A DNA stretch of 64,000 bases from Bradyrhizobium japonicum USDA 6 (GTDB lineage: Bacteria > Pseudomonadota > Alphaproteobacteria > Rhizobiales > Xanthobacteraceae), in assembly GCF_000284375.1 (NCBI RefSeq), contig NC_017249.1, positions 8,053,001 through 8,117,000 on the forward strand, written 5' to 3'. Below are positions 16,213 through 56,306 of this stretch, in pieces (position 1 is the first letter of the stretch; each line of letters opens with the position of its first letter). Under the pieces are notes generated by a model, which did not search any database, had not been told where the DNA came from, and saw only the letters and a list, made by a program, of their open reading frames with translations. The translations under genes were made by a program, and so were the position numbers.

Positions 16213-16243
16213 TTGACCCTCACGTAGCGTCAGGTTGTAGCGT
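16213..16243 (+). promoter_or_regulatory. NolA-type (MerR-class) promoter upstream of the TrpD-like gene
   Basis: TTGACC and TAGCGT are separated by 19 bp (CTCACGTAGCGTCAGGTTG). The over-long 19-bp spacer with a central inverted motif is the mark of MerR-family promoters. The same arrangement and core occur at nolA itself and nodD2. It lies 157 bp before the TrpD-like start. Confidence 0.7.
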
Positions 16244-16399
16244 CGCCACAGATGCTCACGTTTCATCTGTCGGCCGCCTGTTGGACAAGTGCGGCATAGC
16301 GAGTGCGAATAGACAGGCAGCTGCAACAAGGCACTCGGCTGCAAAGACGTCTGGCTGAACGGTCGCAGCTCAGATTGGACAAGGGACGTGCACAGTTCG

Positions 16400-17413
16400 A
16401 TGGAACCGCTCAAGTCGATCATCGCGAAAGTTGCCACGGGCGCCATACTGACGCGCGAGGAGGCTGCGTCAGCGTTCGACAGCATGATGTCGGGTGACGC
16501 AACTCCCTCGCAGATCGGTGGCTTGTTGATTGGGATGAGAGTCCGCGGCGAAACAGTCGAAGAAGTCACCGGCGCCGCGTCCGCAATGCGGAATTTAATG
16601 CCCAAGGTGGAAATGCAATGCGACCCCATCGATATCACTGGTGCGAGCGACGGGGCGATGCGTCCGCTCAACGTATCGACGTGCGCTTCCTTCATCGTCG
16701 CCGGGGCCGGCGTTCCTGTCGCCAAGTATGTTAACCGCGCTGCGACTTTGCGTTCAAGCACCGCAGACGTGTTGGCGAGTCTAGGCGTAAAGGTCGATCT
16801 CAAGCCTGATGCGATCGCACGTTGTGTGCACGAAGCCGGCATTGGCTTCATGTTTGCGTCAGCCGGCTATCCTGCGATGCAGCGCATCAGCCAGATCCGA
16901 AGCGTGCTTGGAACCCACACAATGTTCAATCTAATCGAGGCTTTGTCTAATCCGGCCGGCGTCAAGCGGCAGATCCTTGGAGTTTTCGCTCGCAAATGGG
17001 TGCAGCCATTGGCGTACGTCTTGAAGAACCTGGGTGCCGATTCGGTATGGGTTGTTCATGGCTCGGACGGGCTCGATGAAATATCCCTCGCCGGGACAAG
17101 CTTTGTTGCTGCGGTCGAGGCCGGTACAGTCCGCACGTTCGAAGTGACGCCGGAAGAAGCCGGGCTCCCCCGCTACCGCGCCGATGCGCTGGAGAGCTGT
17201 GATTGCGAGTCTCATGCCATTGCGTTAGAGAAAGTGCTCGACGGCCTCCCAGGCCCTTTTCGTGATGCCGCACTTTTGAACGCGGCGGCGGCACTGGTGG
17301 TGGCCGGTCGTGCCTCGAACCTACAGCAAGGCGTGGCACTTGGCCAAGAATCACTTGATCACGGCGCTGCAGCCGCCCGGCTGACTCGCTTGATTGCGGT
17401 TTCAAACGCCTAA
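16400..17413 (+). CDS. Anthranilate phosphoribosyltransferase-like protein (TrpD paralogue) with altered PRPP motif
   Basis: 337 residues from ATG 16400 ([20 protein letters not shown] onward). The alpha-helical N-domain and the nucleoside phosphorylase-type alpha/beta domain of TrpD are both present ([20 protein letters not shown], then [19 protein letters not shown], then [12 protein letters not shown]). TrpD joins anthranilate to PRPP in tryptophan synthesis. Oddly, the PRPP-binding GTGGD motif is replaced: the segment reads [17 protein letters not shown], so the second and third Gly, the Asp and the following Thr are displaced or lost, and KHGNR is KYVNR. It may therefore bind another substrate or be inactive. 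No other trp genes are nearby; a MerR-type promoter lies upstream. Confidence 0.8.
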
Positions 17414-17652
17414 AGCTGAGCTGGCTGAGGCTCGACTAATGCGATCAAGAGTGCAGCTTACGTGCGCAAGAATATTGCAGCTGCAAATGCGCGCCACTTC
17501 TGCGGAATTTGAGTGAGCGCCGCTGACGAAACAACTCGCGCTGAGCAGGTGTCCGACAGCCACCCCTTTGCCGACTAGAGGCTGTTCTCGGCCCGGTTGC
17601 TGAGGTGAGGACCCGCGGCGCAACGTGCGTTACGCGCCAAAGGAGACAATGG
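17414..17652. other. Short spacer after the TrpD-like gene
   Basis: No gene or obvious terminator seen. The stretch leads into the small gene at 17653. Confidence 0.3.
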
Positions 17653-17838
17653 ATGATGCCCTGGCAGAGGATGGAAACACTGGGAACGATCGCAACAATA
17701 GAACACATCATCCGGAAGTTTCGGGAATTGATCGATACAGATAGCTCCATCCCGCCAGAGCTGCGGCGTGCGCTGCACGATACCCTGGATGAGCATCTTT
17801 TCGAGGCAAAACGACGTGTTCTGCTGAGAGCGCATTAG
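17653..17838 (+). CDS. Small hypothetical helical protein
   Basis: 61 residues if started at the ATG at 17653 (MMPWQRMETLGTIATIEHII onward), preceded by AAGGAGA, a good ribosome site 8 bp before. The chain is charged and helical (FRELIDTDSSIPPELRRALH) and ends LLRAH. The strong ribosome site supports it as a real gene. No family recognised. Confidence 0.5.
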   Translation: MMPWQRMETLGTIATIEHIIRKFRELIDTDSSIPPELRRALHDTLDEHLFEAKRRVLLRAH

Positions 17839-18184
17839 GTGCGCCGTTGCCGCCTACATGCCGAGAGACTGGCAGGCCAGCGTGGCGCTTTACGCAAACG
17901 CCAAAAACACTTGCCAAGCTTGGCTTCGATATCTCGCCTTCTCAGACTGACCGCCGATGGTGATTCCCGCATACGCCCCCTGAGCAACTCCAAATTTCGC
18001 CGGAAGCGAGCGGCGACGTGCGTTGGGTACGCCGCCGACGCGTTCGCTGGATCTCTCCTCAATGGCCCTCATTAACTGGGGCTCGCCCCCTCACGGCGGC
18101 GCTACATGTTCGCGATAGCCCCTTGGGGGACTGCTTGGGCCAGCATTACCTTGGTCACGTTTTCATAGGCCGCAAAAAAGGGGC
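17839..18184. other. Spacer leading to a NolA-type promoter
   Basis: No convincing gene. Frames on both strands overlap and are Arg-rich. Confidence 0.3.
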
Positions 18185-18215
18185 TTGAATCTGACGTAAC
18201 GTTAAATCGTACGCT
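18185..18215 (+). promoter_or_regulatory. NolA-type (MerR-class) promoter at 18.2 kb
   Basis: TTGAAT and TACGCT with a 19-bp spacer (CTGACGTAACGTTAAATCG). The ACGTAACGT centre is a perfect 9-bp inverted repeat shared with the nolA promoter. It would transcribe the uncharacterised 18.25-18.97 kb region. Confidence 0.65.
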
Positions 18216-18250
18216 CTCGGGCGTGGCACCTATCGTGTGAGGGACTGCGA

Positions 18251-18616
18251 ATGCCTCAGCTGGTCATATCCGCTGACCGATGGCCGGTCATGCTCCTCAT
18301 TGTCTATAGTCCCTCGCTCGGGAGGGCTGTGCAGCGAGTTCCGATCGCGGCGCCAGAGCTCGCACGTAGCTCTAAATGGTTCGGCATTTCTGATCCTGAC
18401 AATATGGCCGCCGGCGGCCACTTCGCCACGGGAGCCGATAAGGTCAGAATTGATCGACGTGGAAGTCTATCGGAAGCGCTTAGGTGGCGCCCGCTTCCTG
18501 AAGCTGCTCGTCTCGCGCAGCAACGCACAAAACTCAGTTCGCCGAACCCGCCACCTTCAAGCTCCTTTCCGCACCTGGCAAGGCGTTTCGACCGTGCAAG
18601 GTTTGGCAGATGGTGA
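18251..18616 (+). CDS. Hypothetical frame downstream of a NolA-type promoter (doubtful)
   Basis: 121 codons opening 36 bp after the predicted promoter (MPQLVISADRWPVMLLIVYS onward). It has no recognisable family, and a second plus-strand frame (18237-18713) runs through the same DNA, so only one at most is real. It is listed because it is the first frame behind a good promoter. It may be a decayed gene. Confidence 0.25.
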   Translation: MPQLVISADRWPVMLLIVYSPSLGRAVQRVPIAAPELARSSKWFGISDPDNMAAGGHFATGADKVRIDRRGSLSEALRWRPLPEAARLAQQRTKLSSPNPPPSSSFPHLARRFDRARFGRW

Positions 18617-18688
18617 GCCCGCGCGGGTTTCGACGAGTGGCCCGCGCGGGCGACTCCGCGTGACCAGCGCGGCATCGGAAGAAATTGT

Positions 18689-18970
18689 TTGGCAGGCTGG
18701 AGCAGCAAGTTGAAAGACCGCGATGGCCTTAAGAAGGTCCTGTTAGTTCATCATGTTGAAGGCCAGTGCCGTTGCATCATCGGTTTCAAAGATGGAGATA
18801 TGAGAGCGGCCTATATGTGCGGCGAGCCTGTATATCAAAAACGCGGCAAGAAGACCTCTTCGTGGTGTGCCGATCATTACCGGAAGATGCACACCGCAGC
18901 TGAGCAGAGCGGAGTGATCGATCGATCGGCAGATTTCCCTCGAGCGATATCCATCGTTCGCACCCCATGA
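18689..18970 (+). CDS. Small GcrA-like zinc-binding protein
   Basis: 93 residues with a TTG start at 18689 behind a GGAAG site. The chain carries C-R-C-I-I-G, then M-C-G-E-P and S-S-W-C-A-D-H-Y, an order of Cys and His like the C-terminal zinc-type knuckle of GcrA cell-cycle regulators (C-R-W-P-x-G ... F-C-G ... Y-C-x-x-H). GcrA's N-terminal helix-turn-helix is absent, so this is a stand-alone knuckle protein that may bind nucleic acid or protein. Similar short proteins starting with DRDGLKKVLLVHHVEGQCR are, as I recall, common in Bradyrhizobium. It lies downstream of the NolA-type promoter at 18185. Confidence 0.6.
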   Translation: MAGWSSKLKDRDGLKKVLLVHHVEGQCRCIIGFKDGDMRAAYMCGEPVYQKRGKKTSSWCADHYRKMHTAAEQSGVIDRSADFPRAISIVRTP

Positions 18971-19110
18971 CAGCCATTAAAAGAAGGCTTCCGCCAAGAC
19001 CGTGTGAGCACAGCCTGTACAAGCGCCAGCCGAAGCATATGACCGGGGCCTCGTCAGGATTTGGGGGGCCGTTGCGGGTGGCGCAAACAGAATGCGCGGA
19101 CCTGACACGC

Positions 19111-19495
19111 ATGAATAGCAAGCTGAATTTTTCCACCCCGGCCGAGGGAAGCGCTACCTATACCTTTGACAAGACCGCGATTCATTTCGAACGGAAGCCG
19201 TCCAGCTATGTCATCCTCAATCGATACATTGAGCGGATCGCTCGCGCCTTGGAGAGCCAGTTTGGTGCCCTGAGAGGAGCCCGACTCGAGATCCCCAGCC
19301 TCGCCGGCGACAATGGACACTGCGAGGCCGATGGATCTATTCCGCTTCACCGCGGCAAAACAACTCTCGATTATTTCAAGCGAGAATATCTTTCCAGCAA
19401 GAATAGAGCGAGTGCTTACGGAACATCCAAATGTAGCCGAATGCTGGTCGGTCGAGCCGTTGCTCGATGGGAAGACGCACCCGCCGCTTATGTGA
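19111..19495 (+). pseudogene. Acyl-CoA synthetase (AMP-forming) relic
   Basis: Two separated pieces of an AMP-dependent acyl-CoA synthetase are readable. The first, from 19111, gives AIHFERKPSSYVILNRYIER and ARALESQFGALRGARLEIPS, the N-terminal start of such enzymes. The second, in another frame at about 19365-19470, reads IISSENIFPARIERVLTEHP followed by NVAEC, the conserved C-terminal hinge region (usually SGGENIYPAEIE). The roughly 300 residues between, including the ATP-binding core, are missing. This is the remains of a deleted gene. Confidence 0.7.
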
Positions 19496-19773
19496 CCAAG
19501 CGGCGGCGACTGCCGGATCGAGGCGCAAGCGCTGATCGCCCATGTTTGGTCAGAGCCCGTTTATCGGGCTCTGCGAGATCATTTCATACGCGGCCGAGCC
19601 ATAAATTGAGATCGGCAGATTCGAGGCGGGCCGTTCTCTCCCGCTGCATCGCAGGTGACATCGAGATGGCGCAAATTCTCCCCTCTCCCAGAGCCTTGCC
19701 ACGGCATGGCAACGACTTCGTGGTTGCCATGACGATCCCATCCTGATCACGACCAGATGTCCGGAGGTCGAGA

Positions 19774-21084
19774 ATGCCGCGAATCCTGATTATGAATGCC
19801 GGTACGCCTCAGATGTCGGGCGCCCACCTAACAAATGCTCAACTTTCGCTGGCCGCCAACTCGGCATTTCGTTCAGCGTGGTTTGCTCAGGAGGGCGACC
19901 TGATAGTCTCTCCGGTAGTGATCCCGGCCGATCTGTTATCCTTCATTGGCGGAACGCTCAATTTCCATTCATCGGCTCTTCGCCTGCTTGTACCTGCGAG
20001 CCGCCAATCGACAATCCTCGATGATTGTACGTTACTGTCCAAAACTGTTGTCGAGCGGCTCAAAAGACATATTCGCCAGAAATCAGACTGGCAATTGTAT
20101 CCCTGCTACTCTACTGAAGGCGTCGCACGCTTGGCGGCCATTCTAGGCATACCGAAGACCGGTGACGACTTCGCTTTGCAGCGCGGGCCTGATCTGTTGA
20201 ATCGCAAGAGCCACTTCCGTCAATTGGCAACAAGCGTTGCACTTCCGCTCCCCCATGGATCAGTCGCGACAGACCCAAATGGACTGTTCAAAGCCGTCAC
20301 CTCCCTCAAATCCGAGACCGGCACGGTCATTGTAAAGTTGGATAATGGAGCTGGTGGAGTTGGAAACGTCATCCTGACCAGCAATAAGAGCGATCCGCTA
20401 CCTGGAGCCAGAGATACTCGGTGGGTTTCGTGGCCGTCGTTTGATCCCGAAGCATTGTGGTCTGAGATGACAACAGCCTCGTGTAAGACGCTGGTCGTGG
20501 AATCGTACCACTTGGCCCGATCTTTATTCTATCTCGAGTATACAATCCAGGATGATGCATCAATCGCTTTTGTCAATAGTGGAAGCATACGTCTGCGTAA
20601 AAGCGCAGACCGATCCGAAAGAGCTCTGATCCGGACGGGACTTGAGCTTCCAAGCGACTTGGAGGAAGAGCAATTGTTAGCTGCCCAGGCCCATGCCTAC
20701 CGTTTTGTGGCACTCGCGCGAGACCTGGGGTATCGCGGAATGATCAACATCGACGCCATTTTCGCACAAGACGGGCGGTTGCTGTTCAATGAAGCGAACG
20801 GCCGCTGGGGTGGCGGCTCGGTGTTACACAACATTGCCGTCCGGCTGCTAGGCGTCGACTATTTCGGCTGTAACGTTATTTTATCTGTGAGAAATGTGCG
20901 ATCAGCATCCTTCCGGGCGGCGCATGATCGTCTCGTCAAGGATGGACTTATATTCGACCACACACGTAAGGAGGGCGTGATCCCGCTTGCTGCCGATGAA
21001 AAGGCTGGCACTGTGGAGTGCGTTGTGATTGCGCCGAACAGGCCCGCGGCCCACGATCAGCAACACCGACTATTGAAGTCGTAG
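19774..21084 (+). CDS. ATP-grasp ligase with preATP-grasp domain (peptide-ligase-like)
   Basis: 436 residues with a GGAGG ribosome site before ATG 19774. The start MPRILIMNAGTPQMSGAHLT resembles the preATP-grasp domain of PGM1-type peptide ligases. The ATP-grasp fold follows: LLNRKSHFRQLA, then VIVKLDNGAGGVGNVIL (glycine-rich ATP loop near residue 190), and the metal site in MINIDAIFAQDGRLLFNEAN with NGRWGGG (residues about 325-350, Asp and Glu/Asn ligands present). Such enzymes join an amino acid or peptide carboxylate to an amine by way of an acyl phosphate, mainly in natural-product pathways. The substrate is unknown. Neighbours are the acyl-CoA synthetase relic upstream and the oxygenase operon downstream on the other strand. 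Confidence 0.82.
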   Translation: MPRILIMNAGTPQMSGAHLTNAQLSLAANSAFRSAWFAQEGDLIVSPVVIPADLLSFIGGTLNFHSSALRLLVPASRQSTILDDCTLLSKTVVERLKRHIRQKSDWQLYPCYSTEGVARLAAILGIPKTGDDFALQRGPDLLNRKSHFRQLATSVALPLPHGSVATDPNGLFKAVTSLKSETGTVIVKLDNGAGGVGNVILTSNKSDPLPGARDTRWVSWPSFDPEALWSEMTTASCKTLVVESYHLARSLFYLEYTIQDDASIAFVNSGSIRLRKSADRSERALIRTGLELPSDLEEEQLLAAQAHAYRFVALARDLGYRGMINIDAIFAQDGRLLFNEANGRWGGGSVLHNIAVRLLGVDYFGCNVILSVRNVRSASFRAAHDRLVKDGLIFDHTRKEGVIPLAADEKAGTVECVVIAPNRPAAHDQQHRLLKS

Positions 21085-22564
21085 CAAACATCGTCAGCCG
21101 CTCAATTCATCGCTTCGAAGCCTGGGATACACCATCGCGCACCGGGAACGCGCGCCTCCCTTCCTTCACGTGGCGACGAAGGTGCCCCAATCACCGAGCA
21201 AGCTTTGGTCGGACGATGAATGGTGGCCCTATGAGAGTGCTCTTGTTCGTCCCGGACGAGACCAGCGGTGCGCCGAAGCTTGTACAGCGACGAGCGTCAT
21301 GGCGTAAGGCTGCCAGCGCAGTTGCCGACCCCAAAAGCTAATCGCATTGCACGTCCTGCTTGGCCGATTTGCGACGCCTACGTTGAAACTCGACAATACG
21401 ATGGGCGATTGCACTCGCTGGCTTGGGTTTATGCGAGTTTCACTATGAAATAAGCGGCCCCAAAAGACCGCACTTTGCCGGCACGTAAATTGCTGCATAG
21501 GAGCAGGAGTTGCCGCAAAGAACGCGGCCGCAGCAGCTATCTTCGGAGCCCCAATGAGGCTGATCCGATTGATCTTGTTCGACTTGGCTTTGATTCTGCT
21601 TGCATCTGGAGTTGCAAAAGCCATGAATGTGGCCGCTGGCGCAAGTTCCGCATTTGTCAGGCAGACTGCTCTGCGCGAGGTGGCACCGAGCTCCAAGCAT
21701 GGTGGTCCCTACTACAGCCAAACGCCGCTCGTTCCCGGGCAGCCGCCGGACAACCCCGGTCGGGACCAGCTGGCTGACAATTCCGCGGGGATGCAACCCA
21801 GCTTTGGATGTGTGGTCCGTGAGTCCCGACGCCCGACTAGCTATATCTTCGATAGCACTGAGAGGCTCAATCTCCCGCCCCGTGTGATGCCGTCGATCTG
21901 CAATCCTATCGCCTCGCCTCTCAGCCTCCTACCTGCGGGCAGCGGAATGGTCATCATGGCCTTTGCGACCACTCTCCTCGTGATTGTGGTGATTGTGGTG
22001 GAAATATTCGGCCCATTGTAACGGCGTGAGGCCCCAACCGCTCCCCTTTCGGCGCCCGCGATACAGCTCGGCATGAGCGGATCCGTGGAGGAGGAACGAT
22101 GGCAAATACCATGCTCGAGCCAGTAGCAAGGTGATCGTCGCGTCGAGGTGATCACTGGGATCGTCGCCGACGATGGACGGGCGAGGAAAAGGCCCGGATC
22201 GGGGCGCAGAGCTTGGAGTAACAATGACACGACCAAAGCGATCACTTCATCGCCACAGCCAAGCCCTAGATCCACAGGCTTGTGCTGGCCTGCCTGCTGG
22301 ATCATCTCGCCAAGCGCGTCCACGAACTCACGCCCGGAATTGGTAACCTCAGAACGTCGCTCATGCCCCATGAGCGAGGTCGGCCATCCGCTCAAGACGC
22401 CCAACTAGGGGCCGTCACCGGACGCGTACGATCAATGTAAGCCATCGCTTGCGACCAGACTCGTGTCGGACCTCACGAAGGACCCGCAAGATGGGAAAGC
22501 CATCAATTCCCCGGAGAGCTCGCTCAGCCCACGATTTGCAGAGACCCATACCAGGCGCGGCACG
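21085..22564. other. Long spacer between ATP-grasp gene and oxygenase operon
   Basis: About 1.5 kb without a secure gene. A plus-strand frame at 21554-22021 begins with a signal-peptide-like stretch (MRLIRLILFDLALILLASGV) and ends with a hydrophobic run, but the middle looks random and a minus-strand frame covers part of it. Its status is open (confidence in it as a gene about 0.3). Confidence 0.4.
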
Positions 22565-39549: not shown

Positions 39550-39563
39550 GGGGTGTCGTTTTT

Positions 39564-43425: not shown

Positions 43426-43693
43426 GCTTACCTTAAGCTGCGCTCTGAACATCCCCGGCACACTGTAGAACCTTCGACGTGCCCCGTTTTCTTTCGTCTC
43501 TCCAGGGTATGGAGGTGAGAAGGAGCCACAGACGCGCAATGCGACGATCGGTCGCGAAGCCTTTTCCAGTTGTGCGCGTGGTGACCTCGAAGGTGCGGTT
43601 TGATGCGCTCACGACGCATTCAGGCTACGTCCGGCAACCATCGCAGAAGAATATGCCTGCCGTGCAAATGTTTGGCTCTATCACTAAAATGTC
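43426..43693. other. Spacer between nodD1 and nodD2 promoter
   Basis: No gene seen. It ends in the NolA-type promoter at 43694. Confidence 0.35.
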
Positions 43694-43724
43694 TTGAACC
43701 GCACATTGCGTCAGGTTGTAGGTT
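43694..43724 (+). promoter_or_regulatory. NolA-type (MerR-class) promoter of nodD2
   Basis: TTGAAC and TAGGTT with a 19-bp spacer (CGCACATTGCGTCAGGTTG). The right half (GCGTCAGGTTGTAGG) is shared with the nolA promoter. It lies 335 bp before nodD2. NolA is known to be needed for nodD2 expression in B. japonicum, which fits. Confidence 0.78.
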
Positions 43725-44058
43725 GCTCTCGTGACAAGCGCTGCACGACCCAGCTGTCGACACCGCGCTTTGGCACGCTGACGAACACTGGGCTGATCTG
43801 CCATCAGCGGACTGAACGACCCTGCTGCGTGGCCGGCCGGAACCGGCAAGACCAATTAGCTTGGAGCTCCCGACGCTTTCCCGCCGCTGCCGATCGGCTT
43901 TCCGCCTGCTCTCCATTGTTGCGGTCATCTCGCAAGCTTCCTTTCCCGGGCGCAGGAATGAGCCGATGTCCATTGGGGCGGGCCAAGACGATTGCTCCAG
44001 GCGCTGGCGCCACCGCACGCTATTGCGCAGCAACGACGTTTGTGCCGGATAGGAAGAG

Positions 44059-45051
44059 ATGCGTTTCAAAGGTCTGGATCTAAATCTTCTGGTCGCGCTG
44101 GATGCTCTAATAACTGAGCGCAACCTCTCGTCAGCCGCACGCAAGATCAATCTTAGTCAGCCGGCAATGAGCGCAGCCGTTGCCCGGCTGCGCAAGCATT
44201 TCCGTGATGAACTGTTTGGAATGAGGGGGCGCGAACTTGTCTTGAGCTCACGCGCGGAAGGGCTCGCGGCTCCTGTGCGCGAGGCTCTGATGCACATTGA
44301 ACTCTCGATTATGGCCCGACATCCGTTCGACCCAGCTCGATTGAACCGCCGATTCAGGATCGTCCTTTCTGACTTCGTAACAGTTGTGCTCTTCCGAAAT
44401 GTCGTAGCACGCGTCACGCGAGAAGCCCCCGCCGTCAGCTTCGAATTGGCTGCGCCGACCGATGAACACGAGCTGCTCCTCCGCCGCGGTGAAGTCGATT
44501 TTGTTATCCGGCCAGATTTTTTCATGTCCAGCACGCACCCCAGAGCGGCCCTATTCGAGGAGCGACTCGTCTGCGTAGGCTGCTGCACCAATAGGGAATT
44601 ACAACCCCGGCTTACATTCGATCGATATATGTCGATGGGTCACGTTGCAGTTAAGCACGGAGGTGCGCCCCGGACGCCAGTTGAGCATTCCTTTTTGACT
44701 GATCTCGGACCCACGCGGCGCATCGACATCCTCGTGCAGAGCTTCAGCATGATCCCGCCTCTCATAGTTGGGACGAACCGCATAGGCACGATGCCATTAG
44801 GGCTCGTGAGGCATTTCCAAAGAACGATGCCCCTTCGGATCGTTGAGCTTCCGCATCCATTCCCCGCCTTCACCGAGGCGGTCCAATGGCCCTCACTTCA
44901 CAACAGCGACCCGGGAAGTCTGTGGATGAGGGACATTTTGTTTCAGGAGGCCACCCGCATGGCAACTACACAAGAGCTCCGTGTGACCAGCAGCCCGGAA
45001 GACGCGGAGCCCCCGGGACATTTCGTGCGATCCGTCTCACCGTTGCCGTAA
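44059..45051 (+). CDS. nodD2: NodD2, LysR-type regulator of nodulation genes
   Basis: 330 residues, starting [20 protein letters not shown], with the LysR winged helix-turn-helix ([20 protein letters not shown]) and a full substrate-binding domain. It is about 16 residues longer than NodD1 at the C-terminus. In B. japonicum NodD2 represses nod genes, probably at high cell density, and is induced through NolA. Here it is the only intact nodD in the window, because nodD1 is interrupted. Gene order nolA-nodD2-nodD1-nodY identifies it. Confidence 0.95.
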   Translation: MRFKGLDLNLLVALDALITERNLSSAARKINLSQPAMSAAVARLRKHFRDELFGMRGRELVLSSRAEGLAAPVREALMHIELSIMARHPFDPARLNRRFRIVLSDFVTVVLFRNVVARVTREAPAVSFELAAPTDEHELLLRRGEVDFVIRPDFFMSSTHPRAALFEERLVCVGCCTNRELQPRLTFDRYMSMGHVAVKHGGAPRTPVEHSFLTDLGPTRRIDILVQSFSMIPPLIVGTNRIGTMPLGLVRHFQRTMPLRIVELPHPFPAFTEAVQWPSLHNSDPGSLWMRDILFQEATRMATTQELRVTSSPEDAEPPGHFVRSVSPLP

Positions 45052-45847: not shown

Positions 45848-45923
45848 TCAGCCGCCATTCTAAGGATAGTCACCACTCGCGCGCATGAATTAAAGGCGAT
45901 TCAACTGGAGCTTAGAAATCCGC

Positions 45924-45954
45924 TTGAATCATACGTGACGTCAGGTTGTAGGCT
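45924..45954 (+). promoter_or_regulatory. NolA-type (MerR-class) promoter of nolA
   Basis: TTGAAT and TAGGCT with a 19-bp spacer (CATACGTGACGTCAGGTTG); the ACGTGACGT centre is a perfect inverted repeat. It ends 15 bp before the nolA ATG at 45970, so the leader is very short. Autoregulation is expected from MerR-family practice. Confidence 0.8.
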
Positions 45955-45969
45955 TTGAAATTGAACAAC

Positions 45970-46683
45970 ATGAACAGAGCTACACCAAGACGGCGTCGAT
46001 GGCGCATTGGCGAACTTGCAGAGGCGACCGGAGTAACGGTGCGCACGCTGCACCATTATGAGCACACTGGACTGCTAGCAGCGACAGAGCGCACTGAGGG
46101 CGGTCACCGGATGTATGACCGCGAAAGCGGGCAACGGGTTCATCAGATTCGCGCGCTGCGTGAGCTTGGCTTCTCGCTCGTGGAGATCCGTAAAGCTATG
46201 GAGGGGACGACCTCACTCACGGACTTGCTGCGCAAACATCTAGAGCGCATAGAAGTCCAAGTCGCGCGCACAACTCTGTTGCGCGACCGTTTGCGCAACA
46301 TGACCATCGACAGCGAGGCGCAGGTAAGTGTGGATGAGCTGCCTGCCACCCTGAACGCCATGTCGCGCGCCGAGACGCGGAGTCAGACGTCCCGGTGCAC
46401 CTGCAATTTAGCTGCGGAGCGAGAGGACCGCTGGCGGCGAATCCGTGATGATCTTCGCGACTGCATGGATGGGGGCGAGCACCCTTGCGGAGAGCGCGCA
46501 AAGGCTGTCGCGGTTGCAGCACGCTTGCTGATCAGCGAAATCGCCGGCGACGATTCACGTGTTTCGATGATCCTGAAGGTACTTGCACGATTAAGCGCGC
46601 CCCGCAGTCTGGCTGGTTGGGATCCCTGTCTAATGCAATATCTCGATCTTGCCCTTGGCGGATTGGAGGATCAGCCTTACTGA
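45970..46683 (+). CDS. nolA: NolA, MerR-family genotype-specific nodulation regulator
   Basis: 237 residues from ATG 45970 (MNRATPRRRRWRIGELAEAT), the known NolA1 length; a TTG five codons upstream falls inside the promoter and is unlikely. The N-terminal MerR helix-turn-helix (IGELAEATGVTVRTLHHYEH, then GLL) and wing are complete; the dimer coiled coil follows (LRKHLERIEVQVARTTLLRD). The C-terminal half has Cys residues (TSRCTCNLAA) and unknown ligand. NolA restricts or allows nodulation of some soybean genotypes and acts through nodD2. Internal ATG codons fit the published shorter forms NolA2/NolA3. Confidence 0.95.
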   Translation: MNRATPRRRRWRIGELAEATGVTVRTLHHYEHTGLLAATERTEGGHRMYDRESGQRVHQIRALRELGFSLVEIRKAMEGTTSLTDLLRKHLERIEVQVARTTLLRDRLRNMTIDSEAQVSVDELPATLNAMSRAETRSQTSRCTCNLAAEREDRWRRIRDDLRDCMDGGEHPCGERAKAVAVAARLLISEIAGDDSRVSMILKVLARLSAPRSLAGWDPCLMQYLDLALGGLEDQPY

Positions 46684-46847
46684 CGCATTCATGGCGGGTT
46701 CCACACGCCGGTTAGGGCAAGCTAAGAAACGCTAGGTGAACCGGCCGCTCTCCGACGCGGCTTGGAGTTTTACGGAATCAAACGGAAGGATTGTCACCGC
46801 CGGTCGATCCGCGTCCCTGACGCCTCCATCGCTCTTCCCAAAAGGGC

Positions 46848-46878
46848 TTGATCCGCACGTAACGTCAAGTTGTAGATC
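46848..46878 (+). promoter_or_regulatory. NolA-type (MerR-class) promoter upstream of a binding-protein pseudogene
   Basis: TTGATC and TAGATC with a 19-bp spacer (CGCACGTAACGTCAAGTTG); the ACGTAACGT centre is a perfect inverted repeat. It lies about 120 bp before the start at 47000. Confidence 0.72.
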
Positions 46879-46999
46879 TTACCGTAGTTGGCGGCTCGCC
46901 CGGCCAACGCAGGTTTGCCCAGCAAGCAACGCCTGTCTACAGGCGTGGTTGACTACAACCAGTTGCGGTTCACTTCAGGTGAGCATTGGAAGCTCTACA

Positions 47000-48098
47000 A
47001 TGGTAAATAAGCGGCATGCCTCTCTTGCGCCTGCGGCGCTTCTCTTCTGCGCTCTCGTCGCTCCGTCTGCGCGCGGCTCTGAAATAAAGATCGCCGTGGC
47101 TGGCCCAATGACCGGAAGCAGCGCTGCATTCGGCGCGCAAATGCGCGATGGTGCGGCTGCGGCGGTCGAGGTCCTGAACGCCTCAGGCCAGCTTCCCGAT
47201 AATGCCAAAACTATATTGAGCGTCGCTGACGACGCCTGCGACCCTAGGCAAGCTGTCGCAGTCGCGAATAAGCTCACGACAGAGCGGATCCTGTTGGTGG
47301 TTGGCCATTTTTGTTCCTCTTCGTCGATCCCGGCCTCCGACATCTACGCGAAGCTGGCATCGTCCAGGTGTTACCAGGCTCGTCAACTCCTCAACTAACA
47401 GAGCACGGCCTTGAGACTGTCTTTCGGATCTGCGGCCCGACGACCAACAGGGAGCCGTTGCCGCCGAGTACATTCACACGAATTATCGCCTCGAGAAAAT
47501 CGCGGTGCTGGACGACAAGAGGACTGCTGGCAGGGGGATTGTCGACGTGGTTGAAGCCCGGCTTCATCGATTGGGACGGCAGGTGAGCCGGCAAAGCTAT
47601 GTTGCCGGTGAAAGGGGCTTCAGAGCCTTGCTCTCAAGAATGGAGAAGGACCGGCTGCGCGTCGCCTATATCGGCGGCTACCACACCGAAGTCGGATTGT
47701 TGGTACGCCAGGCAGCAGAAGCAAAAGCAGACCTCACGGTCATGGCGAACGATCCGCTGATGACCTCCGAATTCTGGGCCATTACCGGCAGCGCTGGGAA
47801 TGGCACATTGTTTACCTTCATGCCCAACCCCGCTGGGAACGCCAATGCTGCCAGTGCGGTCGCCGGACTCAAAGCTTCCGGGCTGCCCGGTGAAGGCTAC
47901 ACACTATACGCTTGTGCCGCTGTGCAAGCCTGGGCAGAGGCGGTGAACCGGAGCGGCTCCTTCAATGCTGACCGGGTCGCCAGCGCGCTTCGTTCCCGAC
48001 CGATCGACCGGTTCGACAAAAGGAGGGACAACTCGGCTTCTGGATTTTTGGTTTATCGCTGGCGCGACGGTCATGTCGAGCGTGTCAAGAAGTACTGA
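47000..48098 (+). pseudogene. Periplasmic branched-chain amino acid (LivK-type) binding protein, frameshifted
   Basis: The start at 47000 gives a signal peptide (MVNKRHASLAPAALLFCALV, cleaved near ARGS) and the family's EIKIAVAGPMTGSSAAFGAQ and ATTERILLVVGHFCSSSS-like region. About 47341-47460 the sequence continues in a second frame (EAGIVQVLPGSSTPQLTEHG, then LETVFRICG), and from 47505 in a third or the first frame (AVLDDKRTAGRGIVDVVEAR, then MANDPLMTSEFWAI). Two small indels at about 47345 and 47470 break an otherwise complete Periplasmic_BP domain. It follows a NolA-type promoter. No permease genes lie next to it. Confidence 0.88.
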
Positions 48099-48138: not shown

Positions 48139-48291
48139 ATGATGAGACGCCCTCAGAACGTTGTCGCAGCAATGCTCGCTAGCGCTTTTATATTCGCTGC
48201 TTTTGCAGCGTTTTTCGCGCTCGCTGCGGCGCTCGCAGAGCTACCGAGCGCCGCCCTGCCGAAGGTGCTACGCCCGATGATAGACAAATAG
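48139..48291 (+). CDS. Small hydrophobic protein (50 aa), doubtful
   Basis: A 50-codon frame from ATG 48139 encodes a basic start (MMRRPQNVV) and a long hydrophobic, Ala/Phe-rich helix (AAMLASAFIFAAFAAFFALA) followed by a short tail. It begins 41 bp after the binding-protein pseudogene. The low-complexity alanine run weakens the case. No family recognised. Confidence 0.3.
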   Translation: MMRRPQNVVAAMLASAFIFAAFAAFFALAAALAELPSAALPKVLRPMIDK

Positions 48292-49939: not shown

Positions 49940-50902
49940 GATTTCATTTGCGCTTTTTGGAGATTGATGGCGTTGAGCGGACGTTTATGGCTGGGCTGAC
50001 AGTTACACTTAGGCCGCACACACCAGGGATCGACATTTGCTGTTTATGGGCTCACCGTCCGTAAGCGCGCCGCTTCCGCTGGCCTTTCATATGGCAACAG
50101 TTCGCCACCACTTTCGAAATCAGGCTTGCTCTATCTCACGCCGCCGGCGACGCATTCGATCTAGCTGGGCCTTGCTGTCCCTCGACGCCTTTCACGAGCT
50201 GCAAGTATCCAAAGCTCGGAAGCGCGCCGCCGATCCCACGCTGCGCCGGCTTTCCTACGCAACTCCGTATTGAACCCACACCGACGGCGCCCGGCCCTTC
50301 TTTGCCAAACGACTAAGAATCCGCCGTGGGGAAAGTGCAATTGCCCTTGCATCTCGTTCCCTCTCTTAGGCGCCTGACCGGTAACAAACACCACGGCCGG
50401 AGCAGAAAGCCACGCGCAGGTGAATATCACACGGCAATAGGCGTCGAGACTTGTCGCAAAGCAGACAAGTCTCATCCGGAACAGGCTACATCACCCCAAA
50501 TCCGACGTCACAAGCGCCATTGCGGTTTGAACGCTTCTTGAGAGTGGGAAAAGAGTAGGCGGCCTTTTTCATCATGCTGGGCTTTAACCGCAACCCGTGG
50601 GGGCCGATCTTCCGAATGAAGGAAAAGCCACAATTTGGTGACCGACCAAGAGGCCCACGACGGCAATGAAGGGCACGACAACTCGTACTCGCTTCACTCT
50701 TTTCAGAATTTCTTCGAATTGCGCGGGCATTACGGCGTTCGGTCATCGCAACTTCAACAAGCATCTATATCCTCTCCTGAAGTCCCGGGAGTAGCGTGGA
50801 AGAGGTTGAAGAGCAGATGTCTTTCGTGCTGAGACACGCAACACAATCCGGTTGCTTTTGAGAAGGTACTTCCTTGTATCAGGATGTCGAGGAGCGTTAG
50901 AG
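49940..50902. other. Spacer between two small genes
   Basis: No recognisable gene. Frames overlap on both strands. Confidence 0.35.
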
Positions 50903-51148
50903 ATGGATCAGATCTTTTCCGAGCAGGTGCAGGTGCCAGATGCCGTTGTGAGCGTCGCATTTGACAAGGCTTGGAGCTTTGTCGAGAAGGATCCGCTGCT
51001 GGCACATAATCTGAAGGCCGTCCTTCATAGCCGATTGCGCACTTACCTCGAGTGCTCGATAAGAAACGGCGAACGGAATGCTTTGAATCTGGCCAACGAG
51101 GCGATACGCAACTTGCGGGCTGAACTGGCACCGTCGACCGGGCAATGA
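50903..51148 (+). CDS. Small conserved hypothetical protein (81 aa)
   Basis: From ATG 50903 behind GAGGAGCG (MDQIFSEQVQVPDAVVSVAF onward). The core FDKAWSFVEKDPLLA, then LRTYLECSIRNGERNALNLA and NEAIRNLRAELA matches a short helical family frequent in Bradyrhizobium and Rhizobiales (F-D-x-A-W-x-x-I/V-E, R-N-G-E-R-D/N, L-A-N-x-A-I). Function unknown. The strong ribosome site and family pattern make it a secure small gene. Confidence 0.75.
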   Translation: MDQIFSEQVQVPDAVVSVAFDKAWSFVEKDPLLAHNLKAVLHSRLRTYLECSIRNGERNALNLANEAIRNLRAELAPSTGQ

Positions 51149-51970
51149 CTCGCTTGTGCCTATTGCGGCGAGAGCATCCGGCGCCGTTAAGGCATTTAGG
51201 GCGCCTCATACGGTGGAAAATTCGGGCCAGTGCGTGGTCGAGCAGACTTTTCTCTAATCATGTGCGGCCCCGCTGAAACGAGAGCGCTCGAGAAAGCTGT
51301 TGCCTCTGCAGCTCCTCTGGCGGCCGAGACCAGGAAGCTGAACACCAGGCCCAGACGGCGGCGAGACGGGGCGGCCGCGCTGGTATTCGCTCGCGCCAGG
51401 AAACCGACCACGGTGACCTTGAGCTCGGCACGATCTTGCGCAACTTCAAGCAAGAGCACTGTCTAGCACGCAGTGGGCTTCCCGACCCATCAATCAAGGT
51501 CGAAGTTGACGGACCATCGAGCTAGACTTGTGGTCGTTCCAGAGCCAAAGCGATCGAGCCTGCAATCGATCGGCATCGCGTTGCTCGCGATTGCAAGCGA
51601 TAGCACGTCCGTGTTGCCGGAAGAATGACCTTAAGCGCCTGAGGCGTGCCATCGATCCAGTACTGTAAGTGCGGCTGGGCGTTGCCGCAGCTTAGCGACG
51701 GAAGGAGCCGAACACCTTTTGGCTTTGCTCCGCGTCGCAGGTGATCATGAACGATCATTTTCAAAGAGGATGATCCGCGCGAGGCGACCACTGCCGAGCC
51801 ACAGCGTCTCGGTAGAAGCAAAGCAGCGGAAACCGCGAGCTCCGCAATCTGACGCCGCGGGCGATTGGGCACGTTTCTTTCCAAGACATGTTGTGCGCCA
51901 GTTACAGCAATTCGCGTTCATGTTGTTAAACGGCACGGTGCCTGGGGCACCTAAAGGAAACAACACGCGA
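51149..51970. other. Spacer with a possible gene relic
   Basis: One plus-strand stretch ending at 51525 reads like a protein C-terminus (LELGTILRNFKQEHCLARSG followed by LPDPSIKVEVDGPSS and a stop) but cannot be followed far upstream and was not recognised. Otherwise nothing. Confidence 0.35.
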
Positions 51971-52696
51971 ATGAAAAAGATTCTTATTCTGACTGCATGC
52001 ATCGGCGCACTCTGTGCGGCCGCCCCCTCATTCGGCACGGATCTGGCCGGGCAGCCCGTCAAGGTCAAGGCGGCACCGCTGCCAGTCGCGGCCCCGATTA
52101 TCGATTGGTCCGGCTACTATATGGGCGCAAACGGTGGCTGGGGAACGAGCCACAATTGCTGGGATTTCAATGGCATCACTTCCGAGGGCTGCCATAATTC
52201 GACTGGCGGTACCGTTGGCGGCCAGATCGGCTATCGTTGGCAAATCTTCAACATGGTGTACGGCCTCGAAGGCCAGGGCAACTGGGCCGACTTCCGCGGC
52301 TCCAATGTCAGCACCGCCTTCCCGACAGACACCGTTGGCACCACGACAGATGCATTCGGCCTACTCACGGGCCATATCGGATACGCGTTCAATGCTGTGC
52401 TCCTTTATGGCAAGGGCGGTGCTGCGGTGACCAGCAACACCTATTACGTCAACTCGGTGGCAACCGGCACCGAGCTTGGCAAAAACAATGATGTGCGTTG
52501 GGGTGGCGTGCTGGGCGCCGGTGCCGAAGTCAGCCTCACGCCGAACTGGTCAGCGGGCGTCGAGTATAACCACTTGTTCATGCAGCGCAGCAACATAAGC
52601 TTCCCAGCGGCCCTTGGCGCGGATCGCGCGCACCAGGACGTCGATCTCATCACGGCACGGCTCAACTACAAGTTTGGCTGGCCGTTCGCCAGATAA
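51971..52696 (+). CDS. Outer membrane beta-barrel protein (Omp25/RopB-like)
   Basis: 241 residues from ATG 51971. A signal peptide (MKKILILTACIGALCAAAPS, then FG) is followed by an OmpA-like 8-stranded barrel: DWSGYYMGANGGWGTSHNCW, GQIGYRWQIFNMVYGLEGQG, ITGHIGYAF-type strands and a C-terminal strand ending in aromatic residues (TARLNYKFGWPFAR). The W-S-G-x-Y-x-G-x-x-G-G start is the signature of the Omp25/Omp31/RopB group, abundant in Bradyrhizobium. It probably stabilises the outer membrane. The frame is open far upstream, but only this start gives a signal peptide. Confidence 0.9.
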   Translation: MKKILILTACIGALCAAAPSFGTDLAGQPVKVKAAPLPVAAPIIDWSGYYMGANGGWGTSHNCWDFNGITSEGCHNSTGGTVGGQIGYRWQIFNMVYGLEGQGNWADFRGSNVSTAFPTDTVGTTTDAFGLLTGHIGYAFNAVLLYGKGGAAVTSNTYYVNSVATGTELGKNNDVRWGGVLGAGAEVSLTPNWSAGVEYNHLFMQRSNISFPAALGADRAHQDVDLITARLNYKFGWPFAR

Positions 52697-52723
52697 AGAT
52701 CTCCACGCGTTTGGATGAATCGG

Positions 52724-52750
52724 GACCCCGGCCCGCGGTCGGGGTTCTTT
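52724..52750 (+). terminator. Rho-independent terminator after the Omp25-like gene
   Basis: GACCCCG and CGGGGTT form a GC-rich hairpin 30 bp after the stop, ending in TTCTTT. Confidence 0.75.
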
Positions 52751-53044
52751 CCTCAGCTGTTCCTCTCCCTAGACCCCTGTCCGACGTCCCGAGCAAGCGG
52801 TGCGGGCTCATCTGAGCAAAGAATCACCCGCTGGTGGAGAGAGCCATGCTCCGACCAGTGAGCATTAGATCGGCCGATTCCACATCTTACCGACCTTACG
52901 AAGCCCCAGAACCTCACCCAGCGCGAGATGCAGACTTGCCCAAAGGAGGGTTATATCTGCGAGTTCACCGAAAGCACCGTGCTCAACTTGCCAGAAGCTG
53001 GAAGCCAAAGATGTGACAGTTGGCGGTCGTTCCTCAATTGAATT

Positions 53045-53360
53045 CAAAGAACATCGAGGCGAATAGCTATCGCGACTGCTTGAATCCGGCTGGTCGCACC
53101 CAGCTTTCCCATCGTATTCTTGACATGAAAATTGACTGCATTCTCGCTGATTTCCAGGATCATCCCAATTTCCCATAACGATTTTCCTTCTCTGACGCCA
53201 TTGGCCGCATTCGTTGCTCTGCCGGCGACTGCGCCAGGATGATCGCATCGTCAAACAACCGAATAGCGTCATCATCCTTGCTCCGAGGCGATCGACAAAG
53301 TGCTCGCTGATGGCGAGCTGGCGAACTCGGAGATCATCGCCTGTCGTCCGTGCGGATCGA
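53045..53360 (-). pseudogene. LuxR-type regulator relic (C-terminal helix-turn-helix)
   Basis: The minus strand encodes GKSLWEIGMILEISENAVNF, then HVKNTMGKLGATSRIQAVAI and AIRLDVL with a stop at 53045. This is the complete C-terminal helix-turn-helix of a LuxR-family (autoinducer-type) regulator. Immediately upstream the frame is lost around 53200 (the expected L-S-x-R-E-x-E segment is out of frame), and the ligand-binding domain is absent or unrecognisable. Remains of a quorum-sensing-type regulator. Confidence 0.65.
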
Positions 53361-54427
53361 CTCCATGCGAACACAAGGATGCTCCATCTTACTCATGCCG
53401 GCAGTGATAGAAGGGCCGAGGGCCCCGGGACTGTGCTGGCGACAAGAACCGAGCGCACGCACGGCTGGATGCTTGGGTCGGTTTAGCTTGCATGGCGAGA
53501 AAACGCAGTCGCGTCCGAACGGTGCTTCGCTTTGTCTCTCGGGCGAGCACGAGGAGATCTTGGGCTCTGAACTACACGTAAGGTAGAGCACGCACCTTTC
53601 AGTGCGAGACTCGATCTGCGTCTTGTCAGTACCAATTCCCTGCTTTGAGATGAAGACAACAGAAGTGTCATCTTTTTTCCCAATCTTGCGAATCATCCAT
53701 CGCTAACCTGTCGCTGATTCTCGGCGTGTGACAGCGTCGGTGACGCGATCGATGAGCTGAACGGAAGATCCGATGCAGACGCCATACTCCCCGCATCGTT
53801 GTCCGGCATTTCATCGGGCCCGTCCGGCAGGCCCGGTACAAACGAACCGAACGGACAGAAATGGGCCACGTCAAAAACGCAACAAGCGATAGGCGCAGTC
53901 GCGAAACCTGTTTGATGCGGAAGACACTTTGCATGCGCATTCCAGAAGGAGAGGCCCCCGGGATCGGACTAGCAAGTGCCATACCAACTGTTGATTTCGC
54001 CAAAATCAATCGTCGCAAAAGGACTTCGAATGCGGACGGTTGGTTGCGAGGTAGGTGCCTCGAAGCATTCATGACATGGGGAGGGAAGGCGACAGTACCA
54101 TTGCGAGCTGCGGCACGGGGTAAGCTACAGCAACAAATGCAGCTCACCTCGGCAGCTCACCTCGGCCGCCCCCTCGAGTGCCGTCCTCTCAGGGCCTCAA
54201 ACGCCCCCTATTGGGGCCCAGTCAACTACCAACCTCGGCAATTGATGGGAGGGTCCACACATGGCACTCGCTAAGGAACTTGAACTGACTACACCTCCGG
54301 CCGCACGATTCCGGCGAACCGCTTAGATCCGCCCCGAGCGGAAATACAATTAGGCCGCACCAGATGCACGAATCATGATGGGCTTGCTAATAAAACGGGC
54401 GAAGATCGTCGCCAAGATATGTGAAGC
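53361..54427. other. Spacer before the TauE/SafE gene
   Basis: About 1 kb without a recognisable gene. Frames on both strands overlap; none has a family pattern. Confidence 0.35.
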
Positions 54428-55144
54428 ATGACTTCCCTGCTCTTCGCGATCATCTCCCTGCTATATGCGAGCGTTGGCCAGGCTGGCGGGACTGCATTCC
54501 TCTCGCTAATGGCTTTTTTTGGTATGTCATCGACAGAGACGCGCCCCACGGCGCTTGGTCTCAACATTGTCGTCGCGGCTTATTCTACTTGGCTGTTCAA
54601 CCGCAACAAGGTCGTTGACTGGACAATCCTGCGCCCTCTTCTCTTTTCGTCAATGCCAGCGTCGCTTGCCGGTGGCTTGATTGTGCTCGAGGAGCACATG
54701 TACAAAACACTAACCGCACTCGTTCTTCTTCTGGCGAGCGCAGTGATGATCATGCAGCGGGGACGAGCTGTCGATCGCGTCGGCGAAATTCCGCTCCGGG
54801 AAAGCGTGAGCATTGGCGCGGTCCTTGGCCTCGTTTCTGGCCTGACTGGGGTGGGCGGCGGTGTGTTCCTCGCCCCGACGCTCATCGCACTGAATTGGGC
54901 ATCACCGAGGCAGACCGTCGCGCTATCACCCCCTTTTATCCTGGCCAATTCCACAGTCGGCTTCGTCGGAGCTCTTTTCACCGGGCAATTTCCCTCTCCG
55001 GATTTGGCTCTATACGCTATCTTCACGCTGGCGGGGGCGGTCGCTGGAGCAGTAATCGGCCTGAAATGGTTGAGCCAGACAGCCATCAGATTCATACTGG
55101 CGGCCGTTCTGCTCGTTGCCGGCATTCAATTGGTTCGCGCTTAA
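54428..55144 (+). CDS. TauE/SafE-family membrane permease (sulfite/sulfonate exporter type)
   Basis: 238 residues with seven to eight hydrophobic helices. The two family repeats are seen: LYASVGQAGGTAFLSLMAFF (N-terminal G-x-G-G motif region) and LGLVSGLTGVGGGVFLAPTL (second repeat, G-x-G-G-G), with P-x-x-x-A-x-S-P-P-F-I-L-A-N-S downstream (SPPFILANSTVGFVGA). Such proteins export sulfite, sulfoacetate or other organic anions across the inner membrane. No neighbouring sulfur genes hint at the substrate. Confidence 0.9.
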   Translation: MTSLLFAIISLLYASVGQAGGTAFLSLMAFFGMSSTETRPTALGLNIVVAAYSTWLFNRNKVVDWTILRPLLFSSMPASLAGGLIVLEEHMYKTLTALVLLLASAVMIMQRGRAVDRVGEIPLRESVSIGAVLGLVSGLTGVGGGVFLAPTLIALNWASPRQTVALSPPFILANSTVGFVGALFTGQFPSPDLALYAIFTLAGAVAGAVIGLKWLSQTAIRFILAAVLLVAGIQLVRA

Positions 55145-56275
55145 AGTGGAAACGCGCATCTTTCATGCGGGCGATCCCAGCGCGGTCAGATCGAAGTACA
55201 AGGTTTCTGCGAGCCGCGGCTCAAGCCTGGTCCGAGCGCCTTGCCCAACACTGAAAGCCGCCAACACGATCGCGAAAAGCCGTAGGGTCGAGCGAGGGTG
55301 AGGCGGATCCGAGCGCGCTCCGCATCGTCCTGAGGCGGACGGTCAGTACTAGATCGCATCCGATTCGCGCTTCCAATCGACCTGCAGGATCAACGTCGGG
55401 CAGGCCGGGCGAGCAAACGAGGCGTACGCCGATCTCGGCTATGGCCTGGCGCGACGCTTCAATCAAGCGTGCCGGACGAAGAGCACCTGATCGATGGCGA
55501 TCCGGCAAGCTCTCACTACCCTGAGGACCGCGCCAGGGTGCGCATTCGACTTGGTTAGGAGCGATAGGGCGATGAACTCTCAATATAGTATTTCTGCAAG
55601 GCCGCGCAATCTCCTTTCTCGCGCGCGTGTGGGCTGCGTCCTCATGGAGAATATTACGAAGATGATGTCCACGCTCGATTGGTTTTCGAAACAGACACTT
55701 TATCGATCCAGTGTGAATGGACTGGAACGCCAGGATGCGAATCCCATTTTCTGTAATCATGAGGCACAACCTTACACCCCGGCTCCTGCATACATGGCCT
55801 CCAGCTCGCAGCGTAGGAATGTTTTGTGACGGGATGATCGACGCCTCACCAGGCGACTTATGTGGAACCGAATCTGGAGGTCCATCGCATTGATGCGACG
55901 CCAATGAAGACTCGCTGCATAGATATGCGATCTGGCCGATCAACAGCTGCAACGGCGTTATCAGAAACAAAACGCCTCAACCGATGAAGCAGAATAGAAA
56001 GTACAGCAAATCGTTCCGAGCTCGCGTTTGCCATCAGCACGACGTCCAACTCGTTGTGAGTTAGTGACATGTATTTGGATCTGAACGAGACGCCGGCGAA
56101 CCAAGGCGTCCCGACGCACTTTGCCGGGGGCGTGAAGTGCGCCGGGGCCACCCCAACATCATCAGTACATCCGTGATGATGCTTGCGGCAATGAGACAAG
56201 CAGCGTGGCGGAATTGAGGCTCATTGATTTTATGCTGGAAACCAAAAAAGTTTTTCGTGAGCTGCTACAAAAGAC
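55145..56275. other. Spacer upstream of hemN region
   Basis: No secure gene. A minus-strand frame (55221-55970) gives fragments that look protein-like near its end but no family is recognised. The right end holds the weak NolA-type site at 56276. Confidence 0.4.
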
Positions 56276-56306
56276 TTGAATCGCACGCAGCGTCACGTGC
56301 TGCAAT
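56276..56306 (+). promoter_or_regulatory. Weak NolA-type (MerR-class) site upstream of hemN
   Basis: TTGAAT and TGCAAT with a 19-bp spacer (CGCACGCAGCGTCACGTGC). Spacing and the CGCACG-x-AGCGTCA start are shared with the stronger sites, but the -10 half is degenerate. It lies 510 bp before hemN, so it may serve another, lost, gene. Confidence 0.45.

Follow-up and report, generated by a model that had tools for sequence, protein, structure and literature searches.

What does the MerR-family regulator NolA control in the symbiosis island of Bradyrhizobium japonicum USDA 6, and through which DNA element? The question is raised by a 64,000-bp stretch (positions 8,053,001–8,117,000 of the 9,207,384-bp single-contig genome; hereafter the window), in which a promoter-like element recurs in front of nolA, nodD2, and several other genes. 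The window lies inside symbiosis island A, which spans 7,920–8,614 kb in USDA6 (PMC3927601). Judged from their sequence and position, these sites very probably serve as MerR-type promoters and together form a single regulon under NolA.

Detection and Anatomy of the Element

A first-pass annotation had listed six sites, at 16213, 18185, 43694, 45924, 46848, and 56276, all on the plus strand, and had read them as a NolA regulon. All six are present, each with 19 bp between the TTGA-type hexamer and a -10-like hexamer. The -10 described as TAGnnT-like is borne out in four of them (TAGnnn), whereas 18185 has TACGCT and the weak 56276 has TGCAAT, and the list was incomplete in that it missed one site at 15328 in the window and four outside it. 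In what follows, sites in the window are numbered from the C preceding TTGA (a T at 15328), i.e., 15328, 16212, 18184, 43693, 45923, 46847, and 56275; the four outside, found by matrix scan, are at genome positions 8034754 (-), 8049400 (+), 8260988 (+), and 8313677 (-).

The 19-bp geometry had been taken as the hallmark of such promoters, and it fits the range of the MerR family but is not significant in the window by itself: TTGA-N21-TAnnnT has five matches (four of them among the six sites) against 2.2 expected, and 4 of 100 shuffled sequences reach five. Since geometry alone is weak evidence, it is the ACGT core that makes the cluster of sites decisive. With the core included and up to three mismatches allowed, the window holds eight matches compared with a mean of 0.02 after shuffling, and none of 100 shuffles reached that number; one of the eight, at 11089, is unlike the remaining sites. 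In the whole genome the pattern CTTGANYCNNACGTNRCGTCARGTTGTAG has seven matches at up to three mismatches, all between 8.049 and 8.314 Mb, and its reversed control has none.

A matrix scan of 7.70–8.55 Mb, a region that includes most of symbiosis island A, and of 400 kb of core DNA gave 11 sites of at least 26 bits, all in island A. The next score was 18.5 bits; the core reached at most 15.4 and the reversed matrix 18.9 bits. The CTTGANYCNNACGTNRCGTCARGTTGTAG search, and not the matrix, served for the rest of the genome, including islands B and C and the final 64 kb of island A. When each seed was left out in turn, all nine scored 24–39 bits and no core or reversed match came that high. A refined matrix, built from 72 thinned sites out of 202 unique ones, returned the same 11 sites at 30–46 bits with nothing between 17 and 30 (core maximum 6.5, reversed maximum 14.9 bits). 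Finally, a matrix made only from nolA promoters of other species (10 sites after thinning) placed the 11 sites at ranks 1–11 in 850 kb, with 15.6–52.9 bits and the next match at 12.1. The hexamer geometry, barely above chance, could suggest that the sites resemble one another by accident or as copies of a dispersed repeat and are no regulatory element at all, a reading to which we give next to no probability and which is already contradicted by the matrix scans, the leave-one-out scores, and the genus and order counts given below. The reversed pattern had no match in 146 genomes of the genus or 297 of the order, the similarity stops at the edge of the site where flanks diverge, and the orientation of the sites is fixed toward the gene behind.

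The element is 33 bp long and reads C-TTGAAT-C-gc-ACG-TAG-CGT-CAGGTTG-TAGgaT (consensus of the 72 sites, CTTGAATCGCACGTAGCGTCAGGTTGTAGGATT), with an imperfect dyad within the fixed 19-bp spacer. The centre of this dyad is position 15, two bases toward the -35 from the midpoint of the spacer, and the dyad of merOP has nearly the same offset. Pairs 5/25, 6/24, 11/19, 12/18, and 13/17 are complementary in 59–69 of the 72 thinned sites, and the weaker pairs 8/22, 14/16, 7/23, 9/21, and 10/20 in 43, 35, 28, 20, and 13, respectively. A spacer of 19–20 bp with a palindrome inside it is described as the hallmark of MerR-family promoters (PMC9909328), and both the long spacer and the palindrome are found here. 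In ungapped matrix matches the 19-bp spacer holds by construction; when the matrix was cut at 14 or 16, inside the dyad, and its spacing varied by ±1 or ±2 bp, no match of at least 20 bits appeared, and cuts at 8 and 25 gave shifted matches that reached 23.7 and 29.5 bits and that genuine sites are able to generate by themselves.

The nolA Locus

The promoter assigned to nolA (45923..45955, plus strand; pattern and matrix scans) consists of C and TTGAAT as -35, the 19-bp spacer with its dyad, and TAGGCT as -10. The gene encodes a MerR-family regulator of 237 aa (45970..46683, plus strand; Pfam MerR_1, MerR, and MerR-DNA-bind) in an open reading frame (ORF) that opens at a TTG at 45955. Among named Bradyrhizobium, 69 nolA loci were found, two remote ones (L075 and L076; 45–46% identity) were dropped before counting, and in all 67 loci counted the site stands 42–48 bp (about 47 bp) upstream of nolA. 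The predicted transcript would start about 9 nt before the first ATG (45949–45972) and be almost leaderless.

The protein scores above the cut-offs of PF13411 (70.5 bits) and PF00376 (57.2 bits), and its residues 60–115, where a dimerization helix would be expected to follow the DNA-binding domain, match PF09278 MerR-DNA-bind at 32.5 bits. Best conserved are residues 12–50, of which 25 of 39 are invariant in 81 sequences, even in those that lack the C-terminus. Short NolAs of 138–152 aa have kept the DNA-binding domain and lost the C-terminal half; those of L305 (p53363), L171, L174, and their relatives have the site before their own gene. PF13411 (E ≤ 1e-6) has four matches in the genome and a single one in the symbiosis island, NolA, in line with the earlier statement that NolA is the sole MerR protein, other MerR-like folds not having been searched for.

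Upstream of nolA, a site at 43693..43725 (plus strand; pattern and matrix scans) stands 366 bp before nodD2 (44059..45051, plus strand), a LysR-family gene by Pfam and the second nodD copy by gene order, which in USDA6 is nolA-nodD2-nodD1 (PMC3927601). The second nodD has a site 315–474 bp upstream in 51 of the 52 loci with a detected second copy, the sole exception being L027, where the site is displaced, and none of 51 first copies has one within 800 bp upstream. This sorting by copy supersedes a cruder count, in which 45 of 73 best matches to NodD2 and 1 of 71 to NodD1 had a site. NolA activates nodD2 in B. japonicum/B. diazoefficiens and a NolA site upstream of nodD2 has been postulated (Garcia 1996; Loh 1999, 2003, as cited in PMC5596368); a conserved one is reported not to have been found there (PMC5596368).

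Downstream of nolA, a third site (46847..46879, plus strand; pattern and matrix scans) is assigned to a gene for a LivK-type substrate-binding protein (46736..48098, plus strand) that is broken into ORFs 46736–47398 and 47505–48098, with Peripla_BP_6 in both pieces, and that probably starts near 47000. At L010 a single ORF of 379 aa with the whole Peripla_BP_6 lies behind the corresponding site. A third site occurs 500–1300 bp past the nolA start in 64 of the 67 loci, and the longest ORFs behind third sites (500–1400 bp; n = 65) cluster with the LivK-type protein in 48 cases, form one further group of 11, join the class I/II aminotransferase of L043 in 4, and are single in 2.

Distribution among Genomes

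In a sample of 146 Bradyrhizobium genomes the pattern was found in 84, namely in all 82 that encode NolA and in 2 of the 64 others, and 62 had neither, the motif-free genomes having been searched for NolA at E ≤ 1e-50. At this threshold NolA is encoded in 76 genomes, each of which carries 7–27 pattern sites, and six more encode a divergent short NolA (54–69% identity, E 1e-37 to 1e-50), the gene of which is closely preceded by a site. The largest number among the 146, 27, was seen in G019. In an order-wide sample the pattern was present in 3 of 297 genomes, all of them Bradyrhizobium, a genus that supplies nine of the sample, and in none of the 288 outside it.

Mutant Data from B. guangxiense

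Deletion of nolA in B. guangxiense CCBAU53363 changed 11 genes, 10 of them downward, and nopP, virK, X268_RS37710, and X268_RS35990 are named (PMC9927474). A matrix scan of 800 of the 979 kb of its symbiosis plasmid, p53363, gave six sites of at least 29.6 bits, the next match having 18.4, and the nolA-only matrix ranked the same six first. One of them, at 678892 (third by the nolA-only matrix, 29.2 bits), is followed after 311 bp by the aminotransferase gene X268_RS37715, with which X268_RS37710, down in the deletion (PMC9927474), forms an operon. The training pool held near-identical copies from G036 of three of the six sites and not of 678892, which still scores 33.8 bits when all G036 and G095 sites are taken out of the matrix. 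With about 12 genes behind six sites and 778 annotated features, the chance of one match in four named genes is about 6%, and the plasmid data are therefore support and not proof. The strongest site of the scanned part, 647984 (+; 46.2 bits), precedes an ORF of 80 aa that begins with signal-like residues and is missing from the gene table. A family of about 169 aa behind five sites was considered as VirK and rejected, as it has no Pfam match and the VirK of p53363 is encoded elsewhere without a site.

Is NolA the Regulator of These Sites?

Several observations weigh against a regulon of this kind. In p53363 the scan found no site near virK (306.5 kb) or nopP (338.2–339.0 kb), nor in the region of X268_RS35990 (305–306.5 kb as placed by tag order, the gene being absent from the gene table), and the authors' electrophoretic mobility shift assay gave no NolA binding to the nopP promoter, an effect that they call indirect (PMC9927474). 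Two nodC-positive drafts, G037 and G073, keep two sites each (2–3 mismatches) without a close NolA; G073 has one match of 36% identity and G037 none at E ≤ 1e-5, and it is possible that NolA was lost and relic sites remain or that contigs are missing. Fifteen loci are without a detected second nodD, and the nodD2-type site persists in 11 of these and is absent in 4. The weakest site, 56275, has 15.6 bits with the nolA-only matrix, where the reversed control reaches 15.0 and the core 12.9, and no compensating co-variation between the dyad halves was seen when looked for in the 72 thinned sites. Many targets begin 300–1100 bp past the site, which is an unusually long leader. Finally, nodC is present in 82 of the 146 genomes and shared with NolA in 80, and as the two genes nearly coincide, co-occurrence cannot single out NolA within the island.

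The near-perfect linkage of nolA and nodC (80 genomes with both, of 82 with each) and the sites kept in G037 and G073 would also be expected if the promoters were real and MerR-like, but mainly bound by another island regulator for which nolA is just one target gene. This we consider very unlikely, as within the search described above NolA is the only PF13411 protein of the island, the long spacer with its inner palindrome is the MerR hallmark (PMC9909328), and a published NolA-dependent operon stands behind a predicted site. The sole island PF13411 match, the ranking by the nolA-only matrix, and the mutant data argue for NolA over other island factors. NolA as the binder is supported by several lines of evidence, and the regulon proposed in the first-pass annotation is supported by promoter position, co-occurrence, the nolA-only ranking, and the published operon; nodD2 and the TrpD-like, LivK-type, and distant hemN1 genes stand as the targets that it named, the hemN1 site being conserved. 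In G037, one of the two sites stands before an OmpR-type regulator (L262).

Rhizobitoxine Genes

An ORF of 852 aa begins 514 bp past the site at 8034754 (-). It has matches to PF00266 (class-V aminotransferase) and PF01053 (pyridoxal-phosphate enzymes of Cys/Met metabolism) and is followed by a desaturase gene (PF00487). RtxA is described as an N-terminal aminotransferase joined to a C-terminal sulfhydrylase-like pyridoxal-phosphate domain and followed by the desaturase RtxC, in a locus rtxACDEFG (PMC3222319), and by domain content the USDA6 genes have this architecture as far as RtxA and RtxC are concerned. RtxA-like proteins were found in 36 of the 146 genomes (E ≤ 1e-200). Twelve of these were sampled, picked by protein and not by site, and about 1.1 kb upstream of the gene was scanned: in all 12 orthologues (80–95% identity) a same-strand site of 34.7–49.2 bits stands 407–588 bp before the match start. 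Since the matrix includes the USDA6 rtxA site, this shows conservation and is not a fresh prediction; with the nolA-only matrix the USDA6 site has 23.2 bits and rank 9 in 850 kb. No link between NolA and rhizobitoxine was found in the parts of the literature searched.

Another reading is that NolA binds but mainly represses, or that some sites only are active, several of those with long leaders being relics or acting on small RNAs. In agreement with this, the USDA6 copies at 56275 and 15328 are weak, the LivK-type and ligase genes downstream of sites are broken, and a conserved small ORF was sought by eye in eight site-rtxA leaders and not found. On the other hand the rtxA leaders diverge between site and gene in the eight compared while the sites stay conserved, the role reported for NolA at nodD2 is that of an activator (PMC5596368), and 10 of the 11 genes changed in the B. 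guangxiense deletion went down (PMC9927474). We regard repression or decay as unlikely to be the rule, and hold to promoters that NolA probably activates.

Other Predicted Targets

A site at 16212..16244 (plus strand; pattern and matrix scans) precedes a gene for a TrpD-like phosphoribosyltransferase (16388..17413, plus strand; TIGR01245 above cut-off, and Pfam), an island paralogue of anthranilate phosphoribosyltransferase. The paralogue has a site 169–382 bp upstream in all six other genomes that hold it and have their sites fully listed (G002, G021, G050, G052, G117, and G138), and the second USDA6 trpD, at 4,977,067, has no CTTGANYCNNACGTNRCGTCARGTTGTAG match in the whole-genome search. 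The next site (18184..18216, plus strand), with orthologous sites in L208, L215, and L256, stands before the remains of a ligase locus (18237..21084, plus strand) that comprise a relic-like ORF (18967–19746) and a PGM1-like ATP-grasp protein (19774–21084). Matched by eye, the former resembles a degraded copy of the AMP-binding ligase found whole, at 531 aa, in L208; it had no match in Pfam or NCBIfam, nor in a search against plasmids. In L208 (genome G117) three orthologous sites punctuate a cluster of about 14 kb with biotin carboxylase, biotin carrier, carboxyltransferase, TrpD-like, flavin reductase, M20 peptidase, AMP-ligase, and PGM1-like ATP-grasp genes, of which USDA6 retains parts only, the carboxylase genes between the first two sites being missing.

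The weaker seventh site of the window (15328..15360, plus strand; 26.3 bits with the first matrix, 30.2 with the refined one) precedes a small four-Cys protein of 99 aa (15671–15970, plus strand; start checked) that by eye appears to be secreted and whose orthologue has a site of 48.6 bits in L208 and L215. Two groups of small four-Cys proteins with N-termini that look signal-like by eye stand behind sites in several genomes, this one and one behind genome position 8313677 (-); no Pfam family matched above cut-off, and one group has a sub-threshold match to the Cys_rich_FGFR repeat.

The site at 56275..56307 (plus strand; 33.5 bits) is weak and lies 512 bp before a hemN gene for oxygen-independent coproporphyrinogen III oxidase (56787..58124, plus strand; TIGR00538 above cut-off), which we take to be hemN1 as named in the earlier annotation. 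Among hemN genes of more than 80% identity, USDA6 included, a site stands 498–518 bp upstream in 8 of 8, reaching 49.2 bits in L207, so that the weak USDA6 copy looks decayed; two remote matches (28–32% identity) have none. Behind 8260988 an OmpR-type regulator follows after about 1080 bp, then a secretin and a CpaD-like protein. ttsI was considered here, the regulator being TtsI-like by eye, and rejected in favour of an OmpR-type regulator with a secretin that has a pilus-type N-terminus and a CpaD-like match just under cut-off. A further target behind a site is an SNase-domain protein with a carbonic-anhydrase family protein. Orthologue counts for the TrpD, four-Cys, SNase-domain, and OmpR-type genes come largely from stretches fetched for their sites and are biased, whereas the nolA, nodD, and rtxA counts and six of the eight hemN matches are free of such selection. 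The window also holds a group II intron (12140–13896, minus strand; Rfam RF01999 and RF00029) with a 432-aa ORF between its ends.

Proposed Mode of Action

By analogy with the MerR family, a NolA dimer would sit on the dyad between -35 and -10 and keep the over-long spacer in a state of low activity; activated NolA would kink and untwist the DNA so that sigma-70 polymerase engages both hexamers. NolA would then amplify itself and raise the Nod-factor repressor NodD2. Further, it would switch on rtxA (rhizobitoxine), hemN1, the LivK-type binding protein or an aminotransferase-LLM oxidoreductase operon, the two groups of small four-Cys proteins, the OmpR-type regulator with pilus-type secretin and CpaD-like genes, the SNase-domain protein with carbonic anhydrase, and the carboxylase/TrpD/ligase pathway.

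It is tempting to speculate that an island-wide MerR regulon has NolA as its hub and shifts the cell from signalling to accommodation, and that a product of the carboxylase, TrpD, AMP-ligase, and ATP-grasp enzymes closes an autoinduction loop. In such a scheme NodD2 would damp the Nod-factor genes while rhizobitoxine, which blocks ethylene, comes on together with small secreted Cys-rich proteins and pilus control; the pathway behind three NolA promoters would make a small molecule sensed by NolA, and truncated NolAs without the C-terminal domain would have escaped the loop. We put this forward as unlikely.

The simpler proposal of a NolA-run regulon already gives a candidate operator and a candidate target list for each nodulating Bradyrhizobium, with an unexpected link of NolA to the rhizobitoxine genes. 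This family of sites in soybean-type root-nodule bacteria, very probably worked by NolA, provides NolA with a set of targets that can be tested. The operator, the large number of its copies, and the list of targets appear to be new; none was found in the literature searched, and Garcia (1996), Loh and Stacey (2003), and Shang (2022; B. zhanjiangense) may hold parts.

Comparison with Known Systems

In the NolA-nodD2 circuit the nolA promoter has been read as a sigma-70 promoter, TTGAAT-N16-TTGTAGGCT (PMC5596368), and here we interpret this sequence as a 19-bp MerR promoter common to nodD2 and other genes. The NolA regulon of B. guangxiense resembles the one proposed in that X268_RS37710, down in the deletion, lies within an operon behind a predicted site; it differs in that virK and nopP are without a site, and the word "motif" is absent from the main text of that report (PMC9927474). 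The regulators TipA and Mta are similar to NolA in their solved DNA-binding parts, which match NolA residues 11–93 and 10–78, respectively, whereas NolA has no Pfam match past residue 115 and its short forms lack the C-terminal half. With MerR-family promoters of the merOP, CueR, and BmrR type the element shares the 19-bp spacer, the inner palindrome, and a regulator gene that itself stands behind such a promoter. Elsewhere, MerR-family promoters are generally known from one or a few sites per genome. The difference here is that each of the 76 NolA genomes has 7–27 pattern sites and that the predicted targets are symbiosis genes.

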